Below are positions 13,242-23,337 of a DNA stretch of 23,337 nucleotides, piece by piece. Below the pieces are notes generated by a model. It was given only the letters and a program-made list of their open reading frames with translations, was not told where the DNA came from and did not search any database. The position numbers and the translations under genes were made by a program. Source of the DNA: a virus; IMG/VR virus record IMGVR_UViG_3300030116_005565, positions 3,264-26,600 of that record; one strand, given 5' to 3'. Every line of letters begins with the position of its first letter. Position 1 is the stretch's first letter.

Positions 13242-14507
13242 ATGGAATCTATATTTATTCAAATTCCTAGTTACAGGGATCCTGAATTATTGCCTACGAT
13301 CAAAGATATATTAGCGACAGCAATACACCCCGAAAGACTTACATTTGGTATTTGTCATCAATTTCATCCAGATGATACATGGGACAATTTAGAAGAATAC
13401 AAAGATGATCCACGGTTTCGTATAATATCTGTACCATGGGATGAGTCACGTGGATTGTGTTGGGCGAGACACCTTATACAAAAATTATGGAAAGGAGAAA
13501 AATGGACACTTCAACTTGATTCACATCATAGAATGCTACACGGTTGGGATCAAGCTTTGATATATATGGCTAATCAAACAGAGGTTTCCAAACCTATGTT
13601 AACAACTTATTGTGGAATGTATAATCCAAAGACTAACGAAAAGATATGTGAGGCTCCATATAAAATGTTACCTGTAAAATTTACCAGTGCAGGTACAATA
13701 GTTTTTACACCTAGCGAAATAGAAAGGTGGCAAAGTTTGTCTAAGCCTATACCAGGTAGATTTGTTTCTGGGCATTTTTATTTTACGTTAGGTATTCATT
13801 GTAAAGAATATCTTTATGATCCAAATTTATATTTTCAAGGCGATGAGATATCGCTTTCTGTTAGATCATATTCTTTAGGTTACGATATATTTCATCCTCA
13901 CAGAACTGTTGTTTGGCATGAATATACTAGAGATGGCAGAACAAAACATTGGGATGATTTTAAAAATGAATCAACAAATAAATTGAATACAACATGGTAT
14001 AAAATAGATGAAGCATCAAAGAGTAGGTTGCGTCAGTTATTAGGAATGGAAGATAATGGATATACTTTATACCCTCACGATATTGGAAGGATTAGAACTC
14101 TTAAAGAATATGAAGACTATGCGGGTGTTGATTTTAAATTAAGAAGACTTCATTTAGATGCGAAAGATGGCAAGATACCACCAACTGTGTTGTCACGAGA
14201 TGATAATTGGAGAACTGTGTCACAAACATTGTACAAGGGCACTGTAGATTGGAGTAAAGAATATCCTAATATACAAAAGTCTCTTGGTTGCACATGCAAT
14301 ATATCTTTTATAATGGTTGCAATCGAAGATGAAACAGGGCGAACTTTATATCGAGAGGACTTAAATAAAAGCGAGTATAAAAATGGTGCGCTTACTACAC
14401 TAGCCTACGAGTTTGAATCTACTGAGACACCTGTTAAATCTATTGTATGGACATATACAACCAAAAATGAATGGGTGCATAAAATAGAGAAACAAATAAT
14501 TTCTTAA
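13242..14507 (+). CDS. GlcNAc-transferase-like glycosyltransferase (GT60 / Pfam Glcnac type)
   Basis: This 421-residue protein probably transfers a sugar, GlcNAc by family analogy, from a nucleotide donor. It begins IFIQIPSYRDPELLPTIKD, the hallmark first strand and helix of the family. It continues with ESRGLCWARHLIQ and LQLDSHHRM, whose D93-S94-H95 takes the place of the DxD metal-binding motif. G200-D201-E202 (YFQGDEISLSVR) and the segment YDIFHPHRTVVWHEY complete the GT-A core at about residue 230. Residues about 330-421 form a separate, probably beta-rich, C-terminal extension. GT60 includes polypeptide alpha-GlcNAc-transferases acting on hydroxyproline (Dictyostelium Skp1) and on Thr in mucins (Trypanosoma). 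It sits inside the virion operon directly after two proteins with Thr/Pro linkers, suggesting virion protein glycosylation. Cell-surface glycan modification of the host is the alternative. No membrane segment is visible, so cytoplasmic action is likely. Confidence 0.87.
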   Translation: MESIFIQIPSYRDPELLPTIKDILATAIHPERLTFGICHQFHPDDTWDNLEEYKDDPRFRIISVPWDESRGLCWARHLIQKLWKGEKWTLQLDSHHRMLHGWDQALIYMANQTEVSKPMLTTYCGMYNPKTNEKICEAPYKMLPVKFTSAGTIVFTPSEIERWQSLSKPIPGRFVSGHFYFTLGIHCKEYLYDPNLYFQGDEISLSVRSYSLGYDIFHPHRTVVWHEYTRDGRTKHWDDFKNESTNKLNTTWYKIDEASKSRLRQLLGMEDNGYTLYPHDIGRIRTLKEYEDYAGVDFKLRRLHLDAKDGKIPPTVLSRDDNWRTVSQTLYKGTVDWSKEYPNIQKSLGCTCNISFIMVAIEDETGRTLYREDLNKSEYKNGALTTLAYEFESTETPVKSIVWTYTTKNEWVHKIEKQIIS

Positions 14508-14520
14508 TTTAGTACAAAAT

Positions 14521-15336
14521 ATGGCACACGAAAACTTAAATTTTACAGACCTTACACTTACCTTTAGTGAAAACTCACAAGGTTGGCCTTCTTTTTATTC
14601 ATATATACCTGAGCAAATGATAGGCATGAATAACTTTTTTTACAGTTTCAAAGGAGGCAACATATATCAACACAACACTAATGCAGTGCGTAATAATTAT
14701 TACAACGTGCAATACCTGTCTCAAATAAAAAGTGTATTTAATGAGCTACCACTTGAAAACAAAGTGTTCAAAACTCTGAATATCGAAGGTGAAAACTCAT
14801 GGACAACAACTTTTGAAACTGATTTACCTAATACAGGTCTAGTGAATGATGATTGGTTTGTAAAAAAGGAAGGTGATTGGTTTGCTTACATAAGATCTAC
14901 AGGCACTGATCCTGCAAACGTTACTGAGTATCTTCAAAGATCAATGAATGGTATTGCTCAAAGCACAAGTGTTACAGGTACAAGCACAATACCAATAATA
15001 AACTTTGCAAATAGTGTTGAAATAGGTAATATAATCGCCATAGGGGATATGATATATCACGCTATACCCCCTTACACCACGCCAACACTTGCAGGCAAAA
15101 TTACAAACATAGAGGTTGACATACCAAACAATATAAATAGAATTACACTAGACGCAACAATAACAGGGGCAACAGCACCATCCACGCAGACGGGTTTTAT
15201 ATTATATATCAAAAATCAAACAGTAGAATCTCATGGTTTACTTGGACACTATATGGTTTTCACTATGCAGAATAACAAGACAACTTCAACAGAATTGTTT
15301 GCTGTTGAAACTGAGGTCTCGAAAAGCTTTCCATAA
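14521..15336 (+). CDS. Conserved tail/virion structural protein
   Basis: The product has 271 residues. The N-terminal half has LTFSENSQGWPSFYSYIPEQ followed by the pattern NNFFYSFKGGNIYQHN, then FNELPLENKVFKTLNIEGEN. I recognise this block from structural proteins of many marine and T4-like or crAss-like phage clusters, where its function is not established. Residues about 150-235 are beta-rich, with an alternating hydrophobic pattern, and include IGNIIAIGDMIYHAIPPYTT. The C-terminal section ends HYMVFTMQNNKTTSTELFAV. No membrane segment or enzymatic motif is seen. It follows the glycosyltransferase by 13 bases, so it is probably on the same transcript. It could be a fibre-anchoring or baseplate-like component. 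Confidence 0.72.
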   Translation: MAHENLNFTDLTLTFSENSQGWPSFYSYIPEQMIGMNNFFYSFKGGNIYQHNTNAVRNNYYNVQYLSQIKSVFNELPLENKVFKTLNIEGENSWTTTFETDLPNTGLVNDDWFVKKEGDWFAYIRSTGTDPANVTEYLQRSMNGIAQSTSVTGTSTIPIINFANSVEIGNIIAIGDMIYHAIPPYTTPTLAGKITNIEVDIPNNINRITLDATITGATAPSTQTGFILYIKNQTVESHGLLGHYMVFTMQNNKTTSTELFAVETEVSKSFP

Positions 15337-15342
15337 AATTAG

Positions 15343-15350
15343 TATCTTTG
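15343..15350 (+). promoter_or_regulatory. Second TATCTTTG promoter-like element
   Basis: TATCTTTG is identical to the element at 3695-3702. It lies 6 bases after the preceding stop codon and its last three bases are the TTG start of the acetyltransferase gene. No -33 TTTG element was found at the usual spacing. If active, its transcript would begin after that TTG and could not use it, so either the promoter or the start codon call must be wrong, or the promoter serves the ejection genes from 15769. Confidence 0.35.
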
Positions 15351-15767
15351 TCAGTAAATGAATTAACCGTACGAAACCTAAACGAACTTGACTACGAAAA
15401 GTATTTAGTTAAGTGGTGGAAAGATTGGAAATGGGTTGCGCCCGTGAAAGATTTTCTGCCTGACTCTGGTAAGGGTGGTATAATGGTTTTGGATAAAGAT
15501 ACCCCTGTTTGTGCAGGATATATATATATGACAAATTCTAAAGTAGCTTGGGTGGATTGGATTATATCAGATCGTCATTATAAAAAGAAACCGCAAAGGA
15601 AACAAGCTATTTTTTTACTTATAGAAACTTTAACCAAGATGTGTCGTAATTTAGGTTTTGTTTTTTGTTATGCGTTAATTAAAAATAAAAACCTAATGGC
15701 AACATATACGGAACTTGGTTATAATGAAGCCGATTCGTACAATAAAGAAATGATAAAAAAATTATAA
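15348..15767 (+). CDS. GNAT-family N-acetyltransferase-like protein, TTG start
   Basis: The 139-residue product contains YEKYLVKWWKDWKW followed by KGGIMVLDKDTPVCAGYIYM and TNSKVAWVDWIISD, a pattern I know from phage GNAT acetyltransferases. These move acetyl from acetyl-CoA to an amine. The fold ends with ETLTKMCRNLGFVFCYALIK and a TELGY turn. The acetyl-CoA loop is normally R/QxxGxG/A; here the corresponding segment is KKKPQRKQAIFLL, which lacks the glycines, so activity may be altered. The frame has no ATG before residue 46, which would delete the first strands; TTG at 15348 is the only plausible start, with ATA at 15333 the alternative. It ends 1 base before the next ATG. Substrate unknown; virion protein or host protein acetylation is possible. 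Confidence 0.77.
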   Translation: MSVNELTVRNLNELDYEKYLVKWWKDWKWVAPVKDFLPDSGKGGIMVLDKDTPVCAGYIYMTNSKVAWVDWIISDRHYKKKPQRKQAIFLLIETLTKMCRNLGFVFCYALIKNKNLMATYTELGYNEADSYNKEMIKKL

Positions 15768-15768
15768 T

Positions 15769-16524
15769 ATGGCAGCAGCAACAGCAATCGTAGGTACAGC
15801 TTTATCTGCAGCAAGCACAGGATTAAGTTTTGCGCAATACTCTAAGCAAAACAAAGCACAAAAAGAGGCCGAAGCTGCGGCTGAAAAAGCAATGAAAGAT
15901 GCACGTGCAAAATTAGAGGAGAACGTTTTCAAAGGGTTAGATATAAATCTTAAATCTTTTGAAAGAGAAAGAGATGCATTAGCGGGAGTAGGTGCTCAAC
16001 TTGTAACAGCAGGTCAAGAAGCTGAGCGGGGAGCGGCAGCTACAGCTGGAAGAGTAGCTATGGCAGCTACACAACAAGCGCAAAACATTCAAGATAGGGA
16101 GATAGATGCTTTAGAAAATTTAGAAAGATTGATTGCGGCTGAAGAATCTGCTTTACAAAAGGCAAGAGTGGATTTAGATTTAGGAGAAGTACAAGGAGCT
16201 CAACTCGCCGCACGAGATGCAGAGCGTAATAAAAACCTTGCTCTTGCTTCAGGTGTTCAGTCTCTCGCTCAACTTGGTCAAGGTATTATGGGAACGGATC
16301 CTTATAGTGATAGCCCCGAAAGAAAAAACAAACGTCTAGAGAATCGTACTACACGTCAAAATAATAGAGCAACACGAGTGGCACAGGGTGAAACATCTAT
16401 GGCGGGTGATACACTCCGTGATGCTTTTGGTGCATTGAAATCTGTAGGTGGTACACTTTTAAGCCCTTTGTTAAATGTGTTTGGCGTAAGTGGTGGTGGA
16501 AACGTTGGTGGTGCACAAATTTAA
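15769..16524 (+). CDS. Internal virion (ejection) protein, T7 gp14-like
   Basis: This 251-residue protein begins with a small hydrophobic Ala-rich segment (TAIVGTALSAASTGLSFA, about residues 5-22) that could insert in a membrane. A long Ala/Glu/Lys/Arg-rich coiled coil (about 28-165) follows, with the heptad-like EAEAAAEKAMKDARAKLEE near its start. The C-terminus is basic and then Gly-rich (about 185-251, with SPERKNKRLENRTTRQ). T7 gp14 is 196 residues with a similar build; it is ejected first and forms an outer-membrane pore. Order supports this: the next two genes match gp15 and gp16 in relative size. It starts 1 base after the acetyltransferase stop. The assignment rests on composition and gene order only. 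Confidence 0.68.
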   Translation: MAAATAIVGTALSAASTGLSFAQYSKQNKAQKEAEAAAEKAMKDARAKLEENVFKGLDINLKSFERERDALAGVGAQLVTAGQEAERGAAATAGRVAMAATQQAQNIQDREIDALENLERLIAAEESALQKARVDLDLGEVQGAQLAARDAERNKNLALASGVQSLAQLGQGIMGTDPYSDSPERKNKRLENRTTRQNNRATRVAQGETSMAGDTLRDAFGALKSVGGTLLSPLLNVFGVSGGGNVGGAQI

Positions 16525-16534
16525 TATTTAATAA

Positions 16535-18481
16535 ATGGCTACATTTTATAAATATGCTGAACGGGAGAAAACCAATCAGATAGATTGGAATAAAATATCT
16601 TCTGATATAAACAAAAACATGGCTGCCATCGAAGAGGCTAAAGCCTCAAGACGAGCGGCAGATCAGAAGGCACTGAATGATTCGTTAACAAGGTTAATGG
16701 AGAAACCTGTTGGTGAAGACTTAGCAGAAAATCAACGTATAGCTAACTACACTCAACAAGCCGAAGAAGTTTTACTAAATGATTTGAGGGCGTTGAAGCG
16801 TGGGGATATAAGCCGTAGAGATTATAATCTAAAATACAACAATGTAAAGATGGGAACCGAAAGAGCTTTTAGTTTATCTAAACAGTATCAAGACTCTTAT
16901 CAAATGCATGTGGATAGAATCAAAGCTGATGAGGCAAGCGGTATTGAAGGAGGTTTACTAGGTTTAGCTGAACAGTACGGACTTGCTTCTGGATCACAAT
17001 ATTATATAAACCCTATCAATGGTGATGTTAGTTTGGCTCTAACCACAGGCGAAGGAAAAGAAGGGGATATAAAAATAGGTGACAGCCAATTCGATTTAAT
17101 GGGACTAAGCACCGCTCAAAATATTATTTTTCAAAAAATAGACAAATACAAAACTCAAGACCAAGTAGCAAAATTAACAGAAAATTTAAAAACTGAAGCC
17201 CTAGATGTCCTAGATGGACTAGCTCCAGATGGTACAAGTTTGAAAGGCTACATAACAACAGAAAAAGGTTTTGATGTGCAAGCATTATTTGATGTTGTTG
17301 AAGGGAAGCTTGTTCCTAAAAAAGGACAGGAGGATGCAGCTAATGCTTTATTATCACAAATAAACGCAACTTTTGCGGGCGACCCTTTTTCCAAAGCTAG
17401 TTTTTTATTTGATACCATTGGTACAATTGACGGTAAAACAGTAGAGATGGTATTTCCAGACGCTCAAGGAAACTTTGTCGATACAGGTAATCACCAAATA
17501 AGAATGAAACTTGACAAACAAAGTCGATATGTCCCTGAGATAACAGAAGATCAACAAAAAATTATTGACAAGAACATGGTTGCTCTTGTGAAAAACTCAA
17601 TAGATAAAGAGTTTAAAATCAAAGCTGATACAAGACTAACCGATGCACAAAGATTTGATATAGGTCAAGTTAACCGAAAACTACAAGAAGAAAAAGATTC
17701 ACTTAGATTAAGTATGGATACTATGTCTCAAATGTATCGAGGTGGTGATGTAGATTTGGAAGTAGCGACAACTTACTTTAAGGGTATTGAACCAGGGATA
17801 AGGAAGGTAGAAAGAAATGATGACGGTTTAATATTAACTGTAGAAGATGATCTAGGTAATATAAGAACAGAAACGGTTAGTTTCTTTGCAAAAGATGCAG
17901 AAGGTAATCCTGACAAAACTAAACCTTTATCAGAAAGAGATTTCATACAAGCTGCTTCTAACTTATTATTAGGTAGTGAAAAGACCCAAACAAAAGAGTT
18001 TAGACAATTATGGAATCGTAGAGATGATGAGGGTAATTTTATTTATGGCGCCACTACAAGTTCAAAAGGCAAAGCTACCGCAGGCGAGGGAGTATCCCGA
18101 ACAGGCAGAACAAGATTCAATATATCTACAAACAGATATATTGACACGAAGTTGAAAAGTGGAAAACTTGATTTTGATAAGGGAGTGCCTTTTGGTAAAC
18201 AAGATAATGATTTAGCTAAAGAATTAGAAGCAGAGTTTACTGACCTAGGTTTAAAAGCAGAAGCCACTGGAGGATTGAGCAATGAAGTATTTGTTACTGT
18301 ACCTGGTGTAGAAGAAACGGTGATTATAGATGCTAACAATTACACCCCTTCAGGTGTAAGGAAGGAAAAAGATAAATTAAAAAAATTCTTATTAGTAGCG
18401 ATTAAAAAATTAGGGCTTGAAGAAAAATTAAATTTAGAACCAGACCCTCTAACAGGTAGGACATCTCAATATAATAAATAA
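16535..18481 (+). CDS. Internal virion (ejection) protein, T7 gp15-like position
   Basis: The protein has 648 residues and is charged and mostly helical. The N-terminus (MATFYKYAEREKTNQIDWNK) and the following segment (about residues 20-130, with RDYNLKYNNVKMGTERAF) are a pattern I recognise from virion proteins of marine and Bacteroidota podophages. The middle (about 150-360) mixes helices and short strands. From about residue 390 a segment rich in Lys/Asp/Glu leads into a Ser/Gly/Thr linker (about 500-520). A compact C-terminal domain follows (about 525-648, with PFGKQDNDLAKELEAEFTDL). No catalytic motif was seen. T7 gp15 has 747 residues and forms the periplasmic tunnel of the ejectosome. 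It lies 10 bases after the gp14-like gene and 1 base before the next start, so the three are probably co-translated. Confidence 0.68.
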   Translation: MATFYKYAEREKTNQIDWNKISSDINKNMAAIEEAKASRRAADQKALNDSLTRLMEKPVGEDLAENQRIANYTQQAEEVLLNDLRALKRGDISRRDYNLKYNNVKMGTERAFSLSKQYQDSYQMHVDRIKADEASGIEGGLLGLAEQYGLASGSQYYINPINGDVSLALTTGEGKEGDIKIGDSQFDLMGLSTAQNIIFQKIDKYKTQDQVAKLTENLKTEALDVLDGLAPDGTSLKGYITTEKGFDVQALFDVVEGKLVPKKGQEDAANALLSQINATFAGDPFSKASFLFDTIGTIDGKTVEMVFPDAQGNFVDTGNHQIRMKLDKQSRYVPEITEDQQKIIDKNMVALVKNSIDKEFKIKADTRLTDAQRFDIGQVNRKLQEEKDSLRLSMDTMSQMYRGGDVDLEVATTYFKGIEPGIRKVERNDDGLILTVEDDLGNIRTETVSFFAKDAEGNPDKTKPLSERDFIQAASNLLLGSEKTQTKEFRQLWNRRDDEGNFIYGATTSSKGKATAGEGVSRTGRTRFNISTNRYIDTKLKSGKLDFDKGVPFGKQDNDLAKELEAEFTDLGLKAEATGGLSNEVFVTVPGVEETVIIDANNYTPSGVRKEKDKLKKFLLVAIKKLGLEEKLNLEPDPLTGRTSQYNK

Positions 18482-18482
18482 T

Positions 18483-21400
18483 ATGAACGAACAAGCTTTA
18501 CAAGACGCATATGAGTTGTTTACTGCTGAAGGCTATGAGGGTAGTTTGCAAGATTTTGTAAATCTAATTAACAGCAATCCTAATGCTTTACAGGACTCTT
18601 ATGATCTTTTTAAAGAAGAAGGTTATACCAAACCTATTGAAGATTACCAAGTTCTTGTAGGCGTAAAAAAAAAAGACGGTGGGGCATCTACTTCAGAGGT
18701 TGGTTTATTGGAGCCACCAACTGTTCCACAGGTCTCTTCGACAGAGCAACCCGAAAGTGAGCAACAGTTTTTAAAGACAGACGCAGAGGGTGAGGTTGAC
18801 TATTTTCAAGGAACATTTGGTGATATACTAAGAGGTTTAGATAGTGTAGCCCCTGTAGGTATAGGAGACTTTGTTGACGATATGGCACGTAGCATAGCGT
18901 CAGGATACAGACGTGGTGTATCATCAGAGAATGCTGCTGACCTTTTAGTTCGTGGTAACAAAGCAACTGACGAAGATATTTATTCGTTCATAGAAGCCAA
19001 CAAAAACGCACAAGCCTTGCCTCCATCCAAAGAGATGGAAAACTACATGAAAACATATGAAGATAGTGGCAAAGGTATCATGGGCGTCGTTTTGGGCTTG
19101 GTAAAAAACCCCACTGTTATACCTGAAATTATATTTAGTTCCTTTACGTCGATGGCAACTAACACCGATTCTATTATTGCAGGATTGTCCGCAATTGGAA
19201 CAGGCGCAGCCCTTGGTGCGCCAGGCGGACCAGTAGGAATTGCAACAGGAGCGGGTGCTGCTATACCTTACGCATTTGCTGCGGCAGGCTCAGTGCTTGA
19301 GATGGGTGCTACATTTGCAGAAGTTTTAGAGCAAGAGGCAGAAGGAGAAGAACTTACTCCTGACAAAGTACGGGAGTTGATAAGTAAGCCTGAAGTGTAT
19401 AACAGAATAAGAAACAAAGCCGTAACAAGAGGATTAACAATAGGTGCCGTAGACGCCTTCACTGCACGAATGGGTGGCAGAATAGCAAAAGAAATAATTA
19501 AATCAGCTAAAACAAAACCATTTACAAAAGCAGCAATAGCAGGAACTGTGACTGAAGGTGTAGGTGGATCTGCGGGTGAAGCTGCCGCTCAACTCGCTAC
19601 AGGACAAGAGTTGGACATATCAGACATAGCACTAGAAGGTATTGCAGAACTGCCTATGGGCGTTATAAATTTAGCTTCACAAAAGAAAGTAAAACCTGCA
19701 AAGTATATAGTCAATGATGTGGAATCTACGAAAGAAGAGGTCGATAACATGATTGAAACTATGACCTTAGAAGAACTTACTGAATCTCAAGGCAAGAATA
19801 TAAAAATAGAGAATGACGAGCAGACGCAACAAAAGCTACAGGACAAAATTACTTTCTTGTCTAAGAAAAAAAGTATAAAAAATACATTACCAAACTTAAA
19901 CGAGCCTACATTAGACGAGATAACAAAAAAGCAAATTGAAATTGATAATCTCGAAAATGAAACCACTGAGGTTGCAAAAGAGGAAAAGTCTAAGTTAAGA
20001 CAAGAAATAAAAGAGCTAACAGAAAATCAGCTTGACCCAAACGAACAAGTAACAACAGATCAGAAGACAGATGAACAGGTTACTACCGAGCAAGATATAG
20101 TGGAGGACACTACAAACCAGGAGCAGGTATCGGAAAATCTTTTTATAAATAGAAGCCCCGAGGGAGTACAAGTTATACCAGAGAGAGAAAGCACGATTAA
20201 AAAAGTTATTGATATAGCAAAAGTTGGAGCTAAATCTGTAAGAAAGATATTGCCAAATATGCGGATAGTAATGCACGAGACGCAAGAGCAATTTGAAAAT
20301 GCAACTAATAAAACAGGACGAGCATTCTTTGATGCGCAGGATACTATACATATTAATTTAAGCAAAGCGTCATTGTCTACGGCTCCGCATGAAATATTTC
20401 ATGCCGTATTTTTAAAGAACATTAAGACTAATCAGCAGGCTGCACAACAAGCAGAAAATATGATGAAGTCTGTTCGTAAGGTTCTTCCGAACAACAGTCC
20501 ACTCGCAAAACGCATAGATACATTTGCCGAGTCATATACGGATGTATCAGAATTACAAAATGAAGAGAGAGCTGCTGAACTGTTTGGTATTATGGCAACT
20601 GAAGAAGCATACAGCTCATTACCAACTCCAACCAAAAATATTATAATTAAGTTTTTAGAAGACATAGCAAAGACTATAGGTCTTGATATAAACCTATCAG
20701 AGTTTACTAGAACTGACGAAGATGTAATAAACTTACTCAATACTTTATCCCAAAGAGTAAGGACAGGAGAAGAAATACAGCAGTCAGACATAGAAATATT
20801 GGAGTCAGGTGAGCTATTAGAACAAGAACAAGGAGAGGGTGGACAAGTCGGTACAGTTGAAATAACAGAGCAACAAGAGCGTGAACAAAAAGCACCTAGT
20901 GTATCAAATGATACAAGGTCTTTTGCGACACTTATACAACAAAAAAGTCTAGCTGATTTCAATGGACAAAATTTTGTTACCAACATGTATGACTTCACTA
21001 ATGCAGGCCCAACTGAAATTGCACCAGGAATAGTTCTTCAACTTGACGGAGGTAAAAGCTACGTGCCTTTGATGATGGAAAGGCAAGGATTAAAGCTTGG
21101 AGATAAATCTAATCTAGCTGCTTTTAATAGTCAAGCGCAAGCCGAAACATTTATTAGGAATTCTGTTCAAGGTAATGCTAATTTATTTATGCCACATGTA
21201 GGAACAAAAGAAGGTTCATGGCAGTTTCAACAAAACCTATTAGAACAACTTACTGATGCGGCATTACAAAACAACATACTAACTAACAGAGAAATAATAA
21301 ATACTTTTAATGAAGGCTTAACTAGTATTGAAGGGGTAAAAGCATTTAATATATTCAAGAAAAAACTAGGCAGGAATATTAAAAATTTAAATATCTTCAG

Positions 21401-23337
21401 AGACAATCCAAAACAACTAATTGAATTACTTGATATAAATAATAATTACTCTCCTGATTTAAGAAAAATTTTAAACGATAAACTTTCTGCTAATAAAAAA
21501 TATCAGGAGGCTGTAGGTGTAAAAAATAAATTAGACTTTGTAGGAAAATTTGAAGACCCTCTAAATGTAGGTAGTGTCTCTGGTGATTTGGTGAGTATAA
21601 TAGAATTTGATAATAAAACATTTGAAATTTCAAAACCAAATGTAGGTGACGTAGATTATCATCCTTCCTTTGCTTTTACAATTAAAGCTAACATAAACGG
21701 AATATATCAGCCTACTGAGTTTCTTCAGTCAAGTAATGTAACAAAAAAATATTTAAAATATAATCAGAAAGATGTTCAGGTCTCTGAAAAAGAAGCAATA
21801 GGTGAAACTAAATTTGATAAAGCAAACGTAAAAAGTAGTGCAGGATCTATACCTAAAGTAGGTACAGCAGAATTAGTTAGAGAACAAAGAAGTATAGAAG
21901 ATGTTACCCGTCTTTACAATATGAACAACGATGGTTTTATTCCCAAGACTGCAAATTTATCGCAACTAAGAAAAGCAGTAGAGCCGTTTGGGTTTGAAGC
22001 ATTTCGTTCACGTGAAGATCAGTTCGGTAGAGGCGGTGGATTATTTATAAAGAAACCTGGGCAACCTAGATATAAGCCACCAAGACTTGGTGGACGTCAA
22101 CAAGTTGAGGAGGAACTAGGAGCAAGCAAAGAAAGAGTCTTCAAGGAGATAGAAGGCATTATAGAAAAGTCAAAGAAAAGGGGTAGACAATTTAAACAAA
22201 TACCTAAGAATGTCATAAGTTATCTAGAGCAAACAAAACTTTACGAACAATCTTCTGATGTACAACGTGAGGCATTATTTAGAGATGTGAGGAAGCGTTT
22301 AGGTATAAAAGAAAAGAGCGCTCCATCTGTAAAAAGATTATTTGGTACACTGAAGGATGTAAAAAAAGTAACGTTTACGGAAAAAAATCTTTTATATAAA
22401 AGGATAAAAGATATTCAAGAGGGCGCAAAGACTCTGAAAGTCGCTCTGAAAAGGGCTGAAAAGGTATTAGGTCAAGAACTCAAAGAGCTTAGTGTAAACG
22501 GCACTATTACAGTTAATCAGATGACCTCGATAATGTCTCGTCTAAGAAAGACAGACTTACTCAATCCTGTCTCAAGAGATAACTTTATTGACTACATGAC
22601 GAGAGTCATGGCGGACGTAGACTACACCAACAAAATAAGAGGTGCCAACACAAAACTCAAAAGAGCTAGGAAAGCTGTTGAAACTAAAATAGGTATTGCT
22701 TCTGGTATCAAGTCGCAATTGCAAAGAGTATTTAGTATAAGCCCCTCCCGTGTGCCACTACAAGTTCTTGATAACTACCTCGAACTAATTAATATATTCT
22801 CACAACCAAAACAAATATTAGACTTACCTACTCAAAATAAAATAGAAGAGTTGTATGAACCTGTGCTCAAACAATTAGACGAAGAATTATCCATGTCTAG
22901 TGATCTATCAGACAGGTTAGCAGAAACGGATCAGAAGGTATTCAAAGATGGTAAGTTAGACTACAGAGCCACTATACAGAAGATGCTTGATACAGGTCAA
23001 ATAGATGATAGGGAGTTTGAAGTGATGCGAAAGTATAAATCACAAATCTTACCAACACTTGAGCCAACGCAAAAAAGCGAAGCTGAAATAGAAGCTGCAA
23101 AGACTTTGCTTAAAATAGAGATTGCTACGGCGGGTGACCCCAACCCAAACAATTTACCTTCACGGGATGAAAGAAATGTGATTAGAGAATTTGGTAAACT
23201 TATAAGAACAAAAGCATTAGATTCACTAACACCTCAGGAGCTAACTAACGTACTACGTATATTAGACAACATACAAAATGGTTACTTGCCACATGCCGCA
23301 AAGACCATGGTTAATAGGTTGAACGCAATAAATTCTG
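18483..23337 (+). CDS. Giant ejection/internal virion protein with embedded metallopeptidase, 3'-truncated
   Basis: The frame runs without a stop from ATG at 18483 to the window edge (1618 codons), already longer than T7 gp16 (1318 residues). A 30-residue helical motif is duplicated at residues 5-34 and 35-64. Residues 200-280 form a Gly/Ala-rich hydrophobic region that could insert in membrane, followed by a similar region around 325-400 (GGSAGEAAAQLATGQ). A Glu/Gln/Lys-rich stretch (about 415-545) follows. Residues about 570-740 hold the metallopeptidase: HEIFH at 636-640, preceded by RIVMHETQEQF, and followed by EERAAELFG at 694-702, which probably supplies the third zinc ligand. Residues about 800-930 carry KSYVPLMMERQGLKLGDKSN, seen in other giant phage proteins. 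The remainder is charged and helical. No polymerase DxDGD motif or lysozyme motif was found. It probably enters the host with the DNA. Confidence 0.83.
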   Translation, partial: MNEQALQDAYELFTAEGYEGSLQDFVNLINSNPNALQDSYDLFKEEGYTKPIEDYQVLVGVKKKDGGASTSEVGLLEPPTVPQVSSTEQPESEQQFLKTDAEGEVDYFQGTFGDILRGLDSVAPVGIGDFVDDMARSIASGYRRGVSSENAADLLVRGNKATDEDIYSFIEANKNAQALPPSKEMENYMKTYEDSGKGIMGVVLGLVKNPTVIPEIIFSSFTSMATNTDSIIAGLSAIGTGAALGAPGGPVGIATGAGAAIPYAFAAAGSVLEMGATFAEVLEQEAEGEELTPDKVRELISKPEVYNRIRNKAVTRGLTIGAVDAFTARMGGRIAKEIIKSAKTKPFTKAAIAGTVTEGVGGSAGEAAAQLATGQELDISDIALEGIAELPMGVINLASQKKVKPAKYIVNDVESTKEEVDNMIETMTLEELTESQGKNIKIENDEQTQQKLQDKITFLSKKKSIKNTLPNLNEPTLDEITKKQIEIDNLENETTEVAKEEKSKLRQEIKELTENQLDPNEQVTTDQKTDEQVTTEQDIVEDTTNQEQVSENLFINRSPEGVQVIPERESTIKKVIDIAKVGAKSVRKILPNMRIVMHETQEQFENATNKTGRAFFDAQDTIHINLSKASLSTAPHEIFHAVFLKNIKTNQQAAQQAENMMKSVRKVLPNNSPLAKRIDTFAESYTDVSELQNEERAAELFGIMATEEAYSSLPTPTKNIIIKFLEDIAKTIGLDINLSEFTRTDEDVINLLNTLSQRVRTGEEIQQSDIEILESGELLEQEQGEGGQVGTVEITEQQEREQKAPSVSNDTRSFATLIQQKSLADFNGQNFVTNMYDFTNAGPTEIAPGIVLQLDGGKSYVPLMMERQGLKLGDKSNLAAFNSQAQAETFIRNSVQGNANLFMPHVGTKEGSWQFQQNLLEQLTDAALQNNILTNREIINTFNEGLTSIEGVKAFNIFKKKLGRNIKNLNIFRDNPKQLIELLDINNNYSPDLRKILNDKLSANKKYQEAVGVKNKLDFVGKFEDPLNVGSVSGDLVSIIEFDNKTFEISKPNVGDVDYHPSFAFTIKANINGIYQPTEFLQSSNVTKKYLKYNQKDVQVSEKEAIGETKFDKANVKSSAGSIPKVGTAELVREQRSIEDVTRLYNMNNDGFIPKTANLSQLRKAVEPFGFEAFRSREDQFGRGGGLFIKKPGQPRYKPPRLGGRQQVEEELGASKERVFKEIEGIIEKSKKRGRQFKQIPKNVISYLEQTKLYEQSSDVQREALFRDVRKRLGIKEKSAPSVKRLFGTLKDVKKVTFTEKNLLYKRIKDIQEGAKTLKVALKRAEKVLGQELKELSVNGTITVNQMTSIMSRLRKTDLLNPVSRDNFIDYMTRVMADVDYTNKIRGANTKLKRARKAVETKIGIASGIKSQLQRVFSISPSRVPLQVLDNYLELINIFSQPKQILDLPTQNKIEELYEPVLKQLDEELSMSSDLSDRLAETDQKVFKDGKLDYRATIQKMLDTGQIDDREFEVMRKYKSQILPTLEPTQKSEAEIEAAKTLLKIEIATAGDPNPNNLPSRDERNVIREFGKLIRTKALDSLTPQELTNVLRILDNIQNGYLPHAAKTMVNRLNAINS
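18495..18674 (+). repeat. 30-residue helical repeat at the N-terminus of the giant ejection protein
   Basis: Residues 5-34 and 35-64 align with exact 30-residue spacing and share the pattern ALQDxYxLFxxEGYxxxxxD[FY]xxL. The DNA copies share most bases but differ at wobble positions (gctttacaagac versus gctttacaggac). The duplication is therefore genuine but not recent. It may be a docking or packaging motif for the capsid interior. Confidence 0.7.

Follow-up and report, generated by a model that had tools for sequence, protein, structure and literature searches.

Why does a giant phage protein, encoded last in a set of ejection genes, carry a zinc peptidase motif, and what might such a peptidase cut? 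The question is raised by a window of 23,337 nucleotides (the whole stretch of DNA analysed here), which covers bases 3264–26600 of the 40,892-base virus record IMGVR_UViG_3300030116_005565 and stems from a phage related to viruses of Flavobacteriia. The reading frame of the giant starts at window position 18483 and is still open, with 1,618 residues, at the window end, exactly where a scaffold gap of 10 N is located (L006:4902-4911). The frame crosses this gap and reaches a stop after 2,510 codons in total. A 98%-identical relative contig reads across the gap position with zero residues missing, so the true length of the giant is about 2,506 residues. An initial annotation of the window had described a protein of at least 1618 residues with HEIFH at residues 636–640 and a downstream EERAAELFG; the frame indeed extends well beyond that length, and the ORF translation places both motifs as claimed, the second at residues 694–702. 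The features of the giant and its neighbours are listed in Table 1.

Table 1. Features of the giant protein, its gene neighbours and comparable loci (window coordinates unless loci are named; residues refer to the giant)
Feature	Position	Strand	Evidence or remark
251-aa ejection-type protein, PHROG 13764 (virion structural protein)	15769..16524	+	E 2.7e-16
648-aa ejection-type protein, PHROG 35506	16535..18481	+	position equivalent to N4 gp51
Giant ejection-type protein, first 1,618 of ~2,506 residues	18483..23337	+	stop ~2.7 kb past window
N1 head, residues 1–61, two tandem repeats	18483..18665	+	99 matches, all N-terminal
N2 conserved N-terminal arm, residues 127–420	18861..19742	+	PHROG 32588 match, E 1e-49
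E/Q/T-rich linker, residues 430–557	19770..20153	+	sequence
Zincin-type metallopeptidase domain, residues 566–775	20178..20807	+	alignments, AlphaFold model, PHROG links, dN/dS 0.07–0.16 (silent-site comparison)
HEIFH, residues 636–640: two predicted zinc ligands and general base	20388..20402	+	
Y685 and E694–E695	20535..20567	+	Y685, E695 invariant 19/19
EQGEGGQVG linker motif, residues 782–790, candidate cleavage site	20826..20852	+	19/19 type-A cargos, 0/22 others
Cargo domain type A, residues 810–1130	20910..21872	+	exchangeable; fold not found in PDB
X1 small mobile domain, residues 1135–1207	21885..22103	+	
MID arm, residues 1217 onward	22131..23337	+	continues to C-terminal arms past window
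HEFGH or HEYGH in variable bay, same arms	L103-L106, L121, L130, L141, L142, L144, L145, L147, L159, L160		

Taken alone, the HExxH motif is suggestive, because three of 1,000 shuffles of the giant's composition also produce it; it is the conservation across homologues that decides for a genuine zincin. A search with the peptidase domain matched 58 viral loci and one contig from a bacterial genome, and the ORFs concerned are all long, with 1,143 to 3,694 residues, although contig ends truncate some of them. This search used HEIFHA as its pattern and hence cannot prove conservation of the motif. In loci fetched via the neighbouring cargo domain and not via the motif, HE and H are constant and the two middle residues vary (VF, AF, LF, MM, LL, VT). 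Every intact domain among 67 non-redundant homologous peptidase domains retains HExxH; its loss in close homologues, which the initial annotation had named as contrary evidence, was not observed. HEIFH itself occurs in 49 of the 67 domains, partly because one search used that pattern. Across 19 diverse peptidase domains, H636, E637, H640, Y685 and E695 are invariant (19/19), compared with 18/19 for E694, and the second Glu of EERAAELFG, E695, is most likely the third zinc ligand. When 16 full-length or near-full-length giants are aligned globally, over 6,013 columns, the same five catalytic residues and one glycine of the cargo are the only invariant positions.

The AlphaFold model of the peptidase consists of a helix, three strands, the HExxH helix and then a later Glu-bearing helix, with an overall pLDDT of 70.5; block values are 90–95 across most of the sheet and 83 for the block with HExxH. 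Structure prediction, proposed in the initial annotation as a check on the zincin fold, contains the HExxH helix and places the predicted third ligand, E695, on the helix that follows it. The predicted topology matches that of polyvalent-protein metallopeptidases (excerpted text of Iyer et al. 2017, PMC5512222), which makes this a peptidase of an already known kind. Individual members of the family match PHROG families of metallo-proteases, DNA pilot proteins and virion RNA polymerases, the last being PHROG 2206 (E 4e-6 in some members). A Foldseek search of the PDB with the peptidase model gave zero significant matches, and no Pfam model exceeded its cut-off for peptidase or cargo. Anthrax lethal factor, which is a zincin, was set aside as a PDB fold match at a non-significant E of 1.3, as was IrrE, found in a PDB sequence search with the peptidase profile at a non-significant E of 0.08. 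Apparent second peptidase copies in L046 and other loci, as well as cross-matches between the peptidase and cargo profiles, were judged to reflect drift in iterated profiles and were discarded. The conserved catalytic set and the predicted topology together support the zinc metallopeptidase domain of the initial annotation, and it is highly probable that an active-site-bearing zincin resides within this polyvalent-type giant protein.

Among the domains of polyvalent proteins, zincin peptidases rank first in frequency, with one or more in about 36% of these proteins, and both autoprocessing and effector roles have been proposed for them, in a discussion that includes N4 (PMC5512222, in excerpt). 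The window giant resembles the proteins described in that excerpt in being a giant multidomain late protein beside virion genes, and in its small zincin core, predicted to combine HExxH with a later Glu helix. Its relatives carry Pfam matches to LPD38, LPD23, methyltransferase and GNAT domains; in the window protein itself, Pfam found no named LPD or effector domain. Neither a cargo-linked EQG motif nor an exchangeable cargo is described in the excerpted text of Iyer et al. What is new here is the placement of the peptidase in a variable bay from which it is often missing, an exchangeable cargo with no PDB match, and a cargo-linked EQG motif.

Whether the giant is part of the virion can be judged from its gene neighbourhood. 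The gene lies among the late virion genes, in the order portal, major capsid, ring-like proteins, muzzle, GNAT, and then the small, middle and giant ejection proteins, and this order is common, wholly or partly, to MW202828, elemo, Panino and Cellulophaga phages. The protein at window 14521-15336 contains a crassvirus muzzle C-terminal domain (PF25729, E 4e-19), and a GNAT-like gene (15348-15767; weak Pfam match), with a counterpart in MW202828, is located between muzzle and ejection genes. A glycosyltransferase (13242-14507; PF11397, E 2.5e-63) is also found within the structural gene block. The small, middle and giant proteins of Cellulophaga phage phi18:3 are annotated from experimental MS/MS. 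Its MS/MS-detected small protein, gp120, shares PHROG 13764 with the 251-aa protein of the window, and its giant, gp123, occupies the same gene position as the window giant; sequence homology between the two giants was not detected, nor was direct homology to the phi38:1 giant. The giant structural protein of the cultured Flavobacterium phage elemo (MT497075, NC_055854; 3,694 residues) lies in an identical gene order and is homologous in peptidase (33% identity), cargo and C-arm (E 3e-74, 7e-61 and 2e-10), whereas its N-arm is unmatched by the N1 and N2 profiles; these matches are those of the elemoE giant, which is annotated as structural. The phi18:3 gene position and the elemo annotation support, indirectly, the presence of the window giant in the virion.

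The initial annotation had assigned the giant to the gp16 position of a T7-like set. It is indeed the last member of its ejection gene set, but homology to T7 gp16 was not found, and the closest sets are instead those of Flavobacteriia podoviruses (elemo, Cellulophaga phi18:3 and phi38:1), together with the N4 layout and with a crassvirus muzzle domain nearby. The lytic transglycosylase domain of T7 gp16 is absent from either half of the giant according to Pfam. The remark that lysozyme and polymerase are not seen holds for both halves in Pfam, including the 3' end that was missing from the window; a scan of window protein and 3' end returned nothing relevant, the displayed matches being under the curated cut-offs. 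DxDGD, the catalytic motif of crassvirus virion RNA polymerase, is likewise absent from the giant, including its 3' end. N4 gp50, the virion RNA polymerase of a member of the Schitoviridae, shares with the window giant the order of small, middle and giant ejection proteins and an HExxH domain within the giant, whereas no Pfam or PHROG polymerase match is present here; a profile comparison with the N4 HExxH domain aligned only 27 columns (P 0.016). Virions of a crassvirus, phi crAss001 (PMC10172136), and of N4 (PMC12633501) store large cargo proteins and eject them. With phi crAss001, the window has in common a muzzle gene nearby and, probably, large proteins stored in the virion and ejected; the word "protease" is absent from the main text of that paper (PMC10172136).

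Profiles of the arms resolve the order N1 head, N2 arm, bay, MID, C1 and C2 arms, with a bay length of 171 to 1,633 residues. Among 9,650 ORFs, N1 produced its matches at the N-terminus in each case, although the loci overlap and the matches do not represent as many independent proteins. It is found only on giant ejection-type proteins, including ones with otherwise unrelated arms, and matches MW202828 (E 1e-18); a packaging or ejection signal is a possible function. X1, a mobile domain of 75 residues, is found again behind the cargo in giants whose arms are unrelated; peptidase, cargo and X1 each form a mobile unit of their own. A search with the C-arm gave 63 loci, of which 8 contain this peptidase family, 13 contain HEFGH or HEYGH, 1 has a different HExxH, 1 has an unusable ORF, and 40 are without any HExxH, about 29 of which look like complete ORFs. 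The arms are conserved and the bay between them, where the peptidase is located, is variable; in many giants the peptidase is missing. Since most C-arm giants do not carry this family, the peptidase is accessory to the ejection machine, and its frequent absence from giants with the same arms argues against a general ejection processor. Processing of the other ejection proteins, one of the roles offered in the initial annotation, is disfavoured by the complete-looking giants without HExxH and by the 13 loci with HEFGH or HEYGH.

The cargo domain directly follows the peptidase; it comprises about 320 residues, among which D, G, GG, A, R and HPS are conserved. The initial annotation had not noted it. 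Its model is of high confidence (pLDDT 92.5, pTM 0.89) and matches no fold in the PDB (best E 1.9), whereas a comparison with predicted phage proteins gave 16 matches with E below 1e-6 and then nothing up to E 0.42. The fold is thus not among solved structures, the predicted proteins compared being those of phages; a search for the cargo in plasmids gave no match. The cargo, with a fold found only in phage proteins, is a candidate for a novel class of effectors injected by phages. Of 31 loci retrieved with the cargo domain, 30 match the peptidase profile upstream of it, usually directly; in the remaining one, L094, the upstream sequence contains HEAFH and HEVQH.

Identity between cargo types A and B is about 22%, and sequence comparison indicates that the cargo exists as exchangeable alleles. 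L014 and L015 are 93% identical in the N-arm, 90% in the peptidase and 95% after the cargo, and only 23% identical in the cargo itself. Conversely, silent sites of L011 and L014 differ by 0.02 (2%) in the cargos and by 0.28 (28%) in the peptidases, and these near-identical cargos beside diverged peptidases point to a recent exchange. A cargo shared by L010 and L013 (93% identical, flanks 39–70%) was rejected as a recent transfer, because its silent sites differ by 49%.

A short motif, EQGxxGxVG, travels with one type of cargo. It is located 21 to 24 residues before the cargo in every one of 19 non-redundant type-A cargos and in none of 22 other cargos, and all 40 of its occurrences in 425,381 residues of giant proteins directly precede a cargo. 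In L082 and L084, where other sequence splits peptidase from cargo, the motif accompanies the cargo. Its possible roles are those of a cleavage site, a cargo cap or a recombination seam; the cap and the seam are to be considered because type-B and other cargos are without the motif. NLxIN, located before the peptidase, was rejected as a cut site, being present in only 31 of 67 domains.

These observations can be combined in a model in which the giant is a virion-packaged, polyvalent-type protein that would be ejected together with the DNA or immediately ahead of it. The arms at its two ends would serve packaging and passage, and its middle would act as a cassette bay holding the zinc metallopeptidase and the adjoining cargo. 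After ejection and refolding, the peptidase would most likely cut the giant itself in a linker next to the cargo, with EQGEGGQVG or its vicinity as a plausible site, and the cargo so freed could then act in the host. Self-cleavage is the best of the options listed in the initial annotation, and that the peptidase frees the cargo in this way has about an even chance of being correct; the whole sequence of ejection, self-processing after ejection and cargo release we rate equally, at evens. Self-processing would explain why the peptidase is conserved while the neighbouring cargo changes. On the other side, N4 vRNAP, with its HExxH domain, is packaged unprocessed (PMC5512222, in excerpt), and no biochemistry for this peptidase family was found.

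The main counter-evidence comes from L008, where the peptidase is retained although the cargo has been lost, and may thus act on another substrate. This locus keeps alive the reading that the peptidase is itself an effector, cutting a host envelope, regulatory or defence protein, with the cargo as a second, independent effector. An effector role is among the options of Iyer et al. (PMC5512222, in excerpt) and agrees with an accessory peptidase that is absent, or replaced by another HExxH, in giants with the same arms. Its tight coupling to the cargo, however, and its conservation while the cargo is exchanged, are less expected for an independent effector, and this reading appears unlikely, if still a serious contender.

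Considerably less probable is that the peptidase works while the virion is assembled, trimming the giant or its fellow ejection proteins, a role proposed for P1 DdrB. DdrB is processed before packaging (PMC5512222, in excerpt) and the gene studied here lies within the late structural block, but the same-arm giants that look complete without HExxH, as well as the giants encoded at this position in phi38:1 and phi18:3, which also contain no HExxH, speak against it. Equally improbable is that the zincin fold carries out no relevant proteolysis and is a module for folding or autoinhibition, comparable to the HExxH-containing C-terminal domain of N4 vRNAP, which inhibits its own polymerase (PMC12633501). 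Against this, the ligands and the general base persist in deeply diverged members although the residues around them change, and the window giant has no polymerase to inhibit.

Release of the cargo by self-cleavage, the preferred reading, has a more specific form, in which the peptidase of the ejected giant would recognise a short tag that accompanies interchangeable cargos of new fold and consists of EQGxxGxVG or an equivalent specific to the cargo type. This form is rather doubtful; if true, new effectors could be swapped in and released in the host. The kind of peptidase is already known; the cargo cassette and the EQG motif are the part worth pursuing, and the pairing of a peptidase with an exchangeable cargo and a type-A linker motif offers an unusually direct test of what such proteases cut.

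Several minor observations concern relatives and their records. PADLOC returned a single weak HTH match on relatives. A contig binned as Aliivibrio (L066) carries a close homologue of peptidase and cargo and is probably a phage contig placed in the wrong bin. Two positional counterparts have database names that look doubtful, namely 'reticulocyte binding/rhoptry protein' in MW202828 and 'tRNA methyltransferase' in Panino (L099:741-12320, L100:13229-18718). Finally, the note on gp101 of NC_021796 cites phi18:1_gp101; the phi18:1 record has only 65 genes, and the citation is probably an error.
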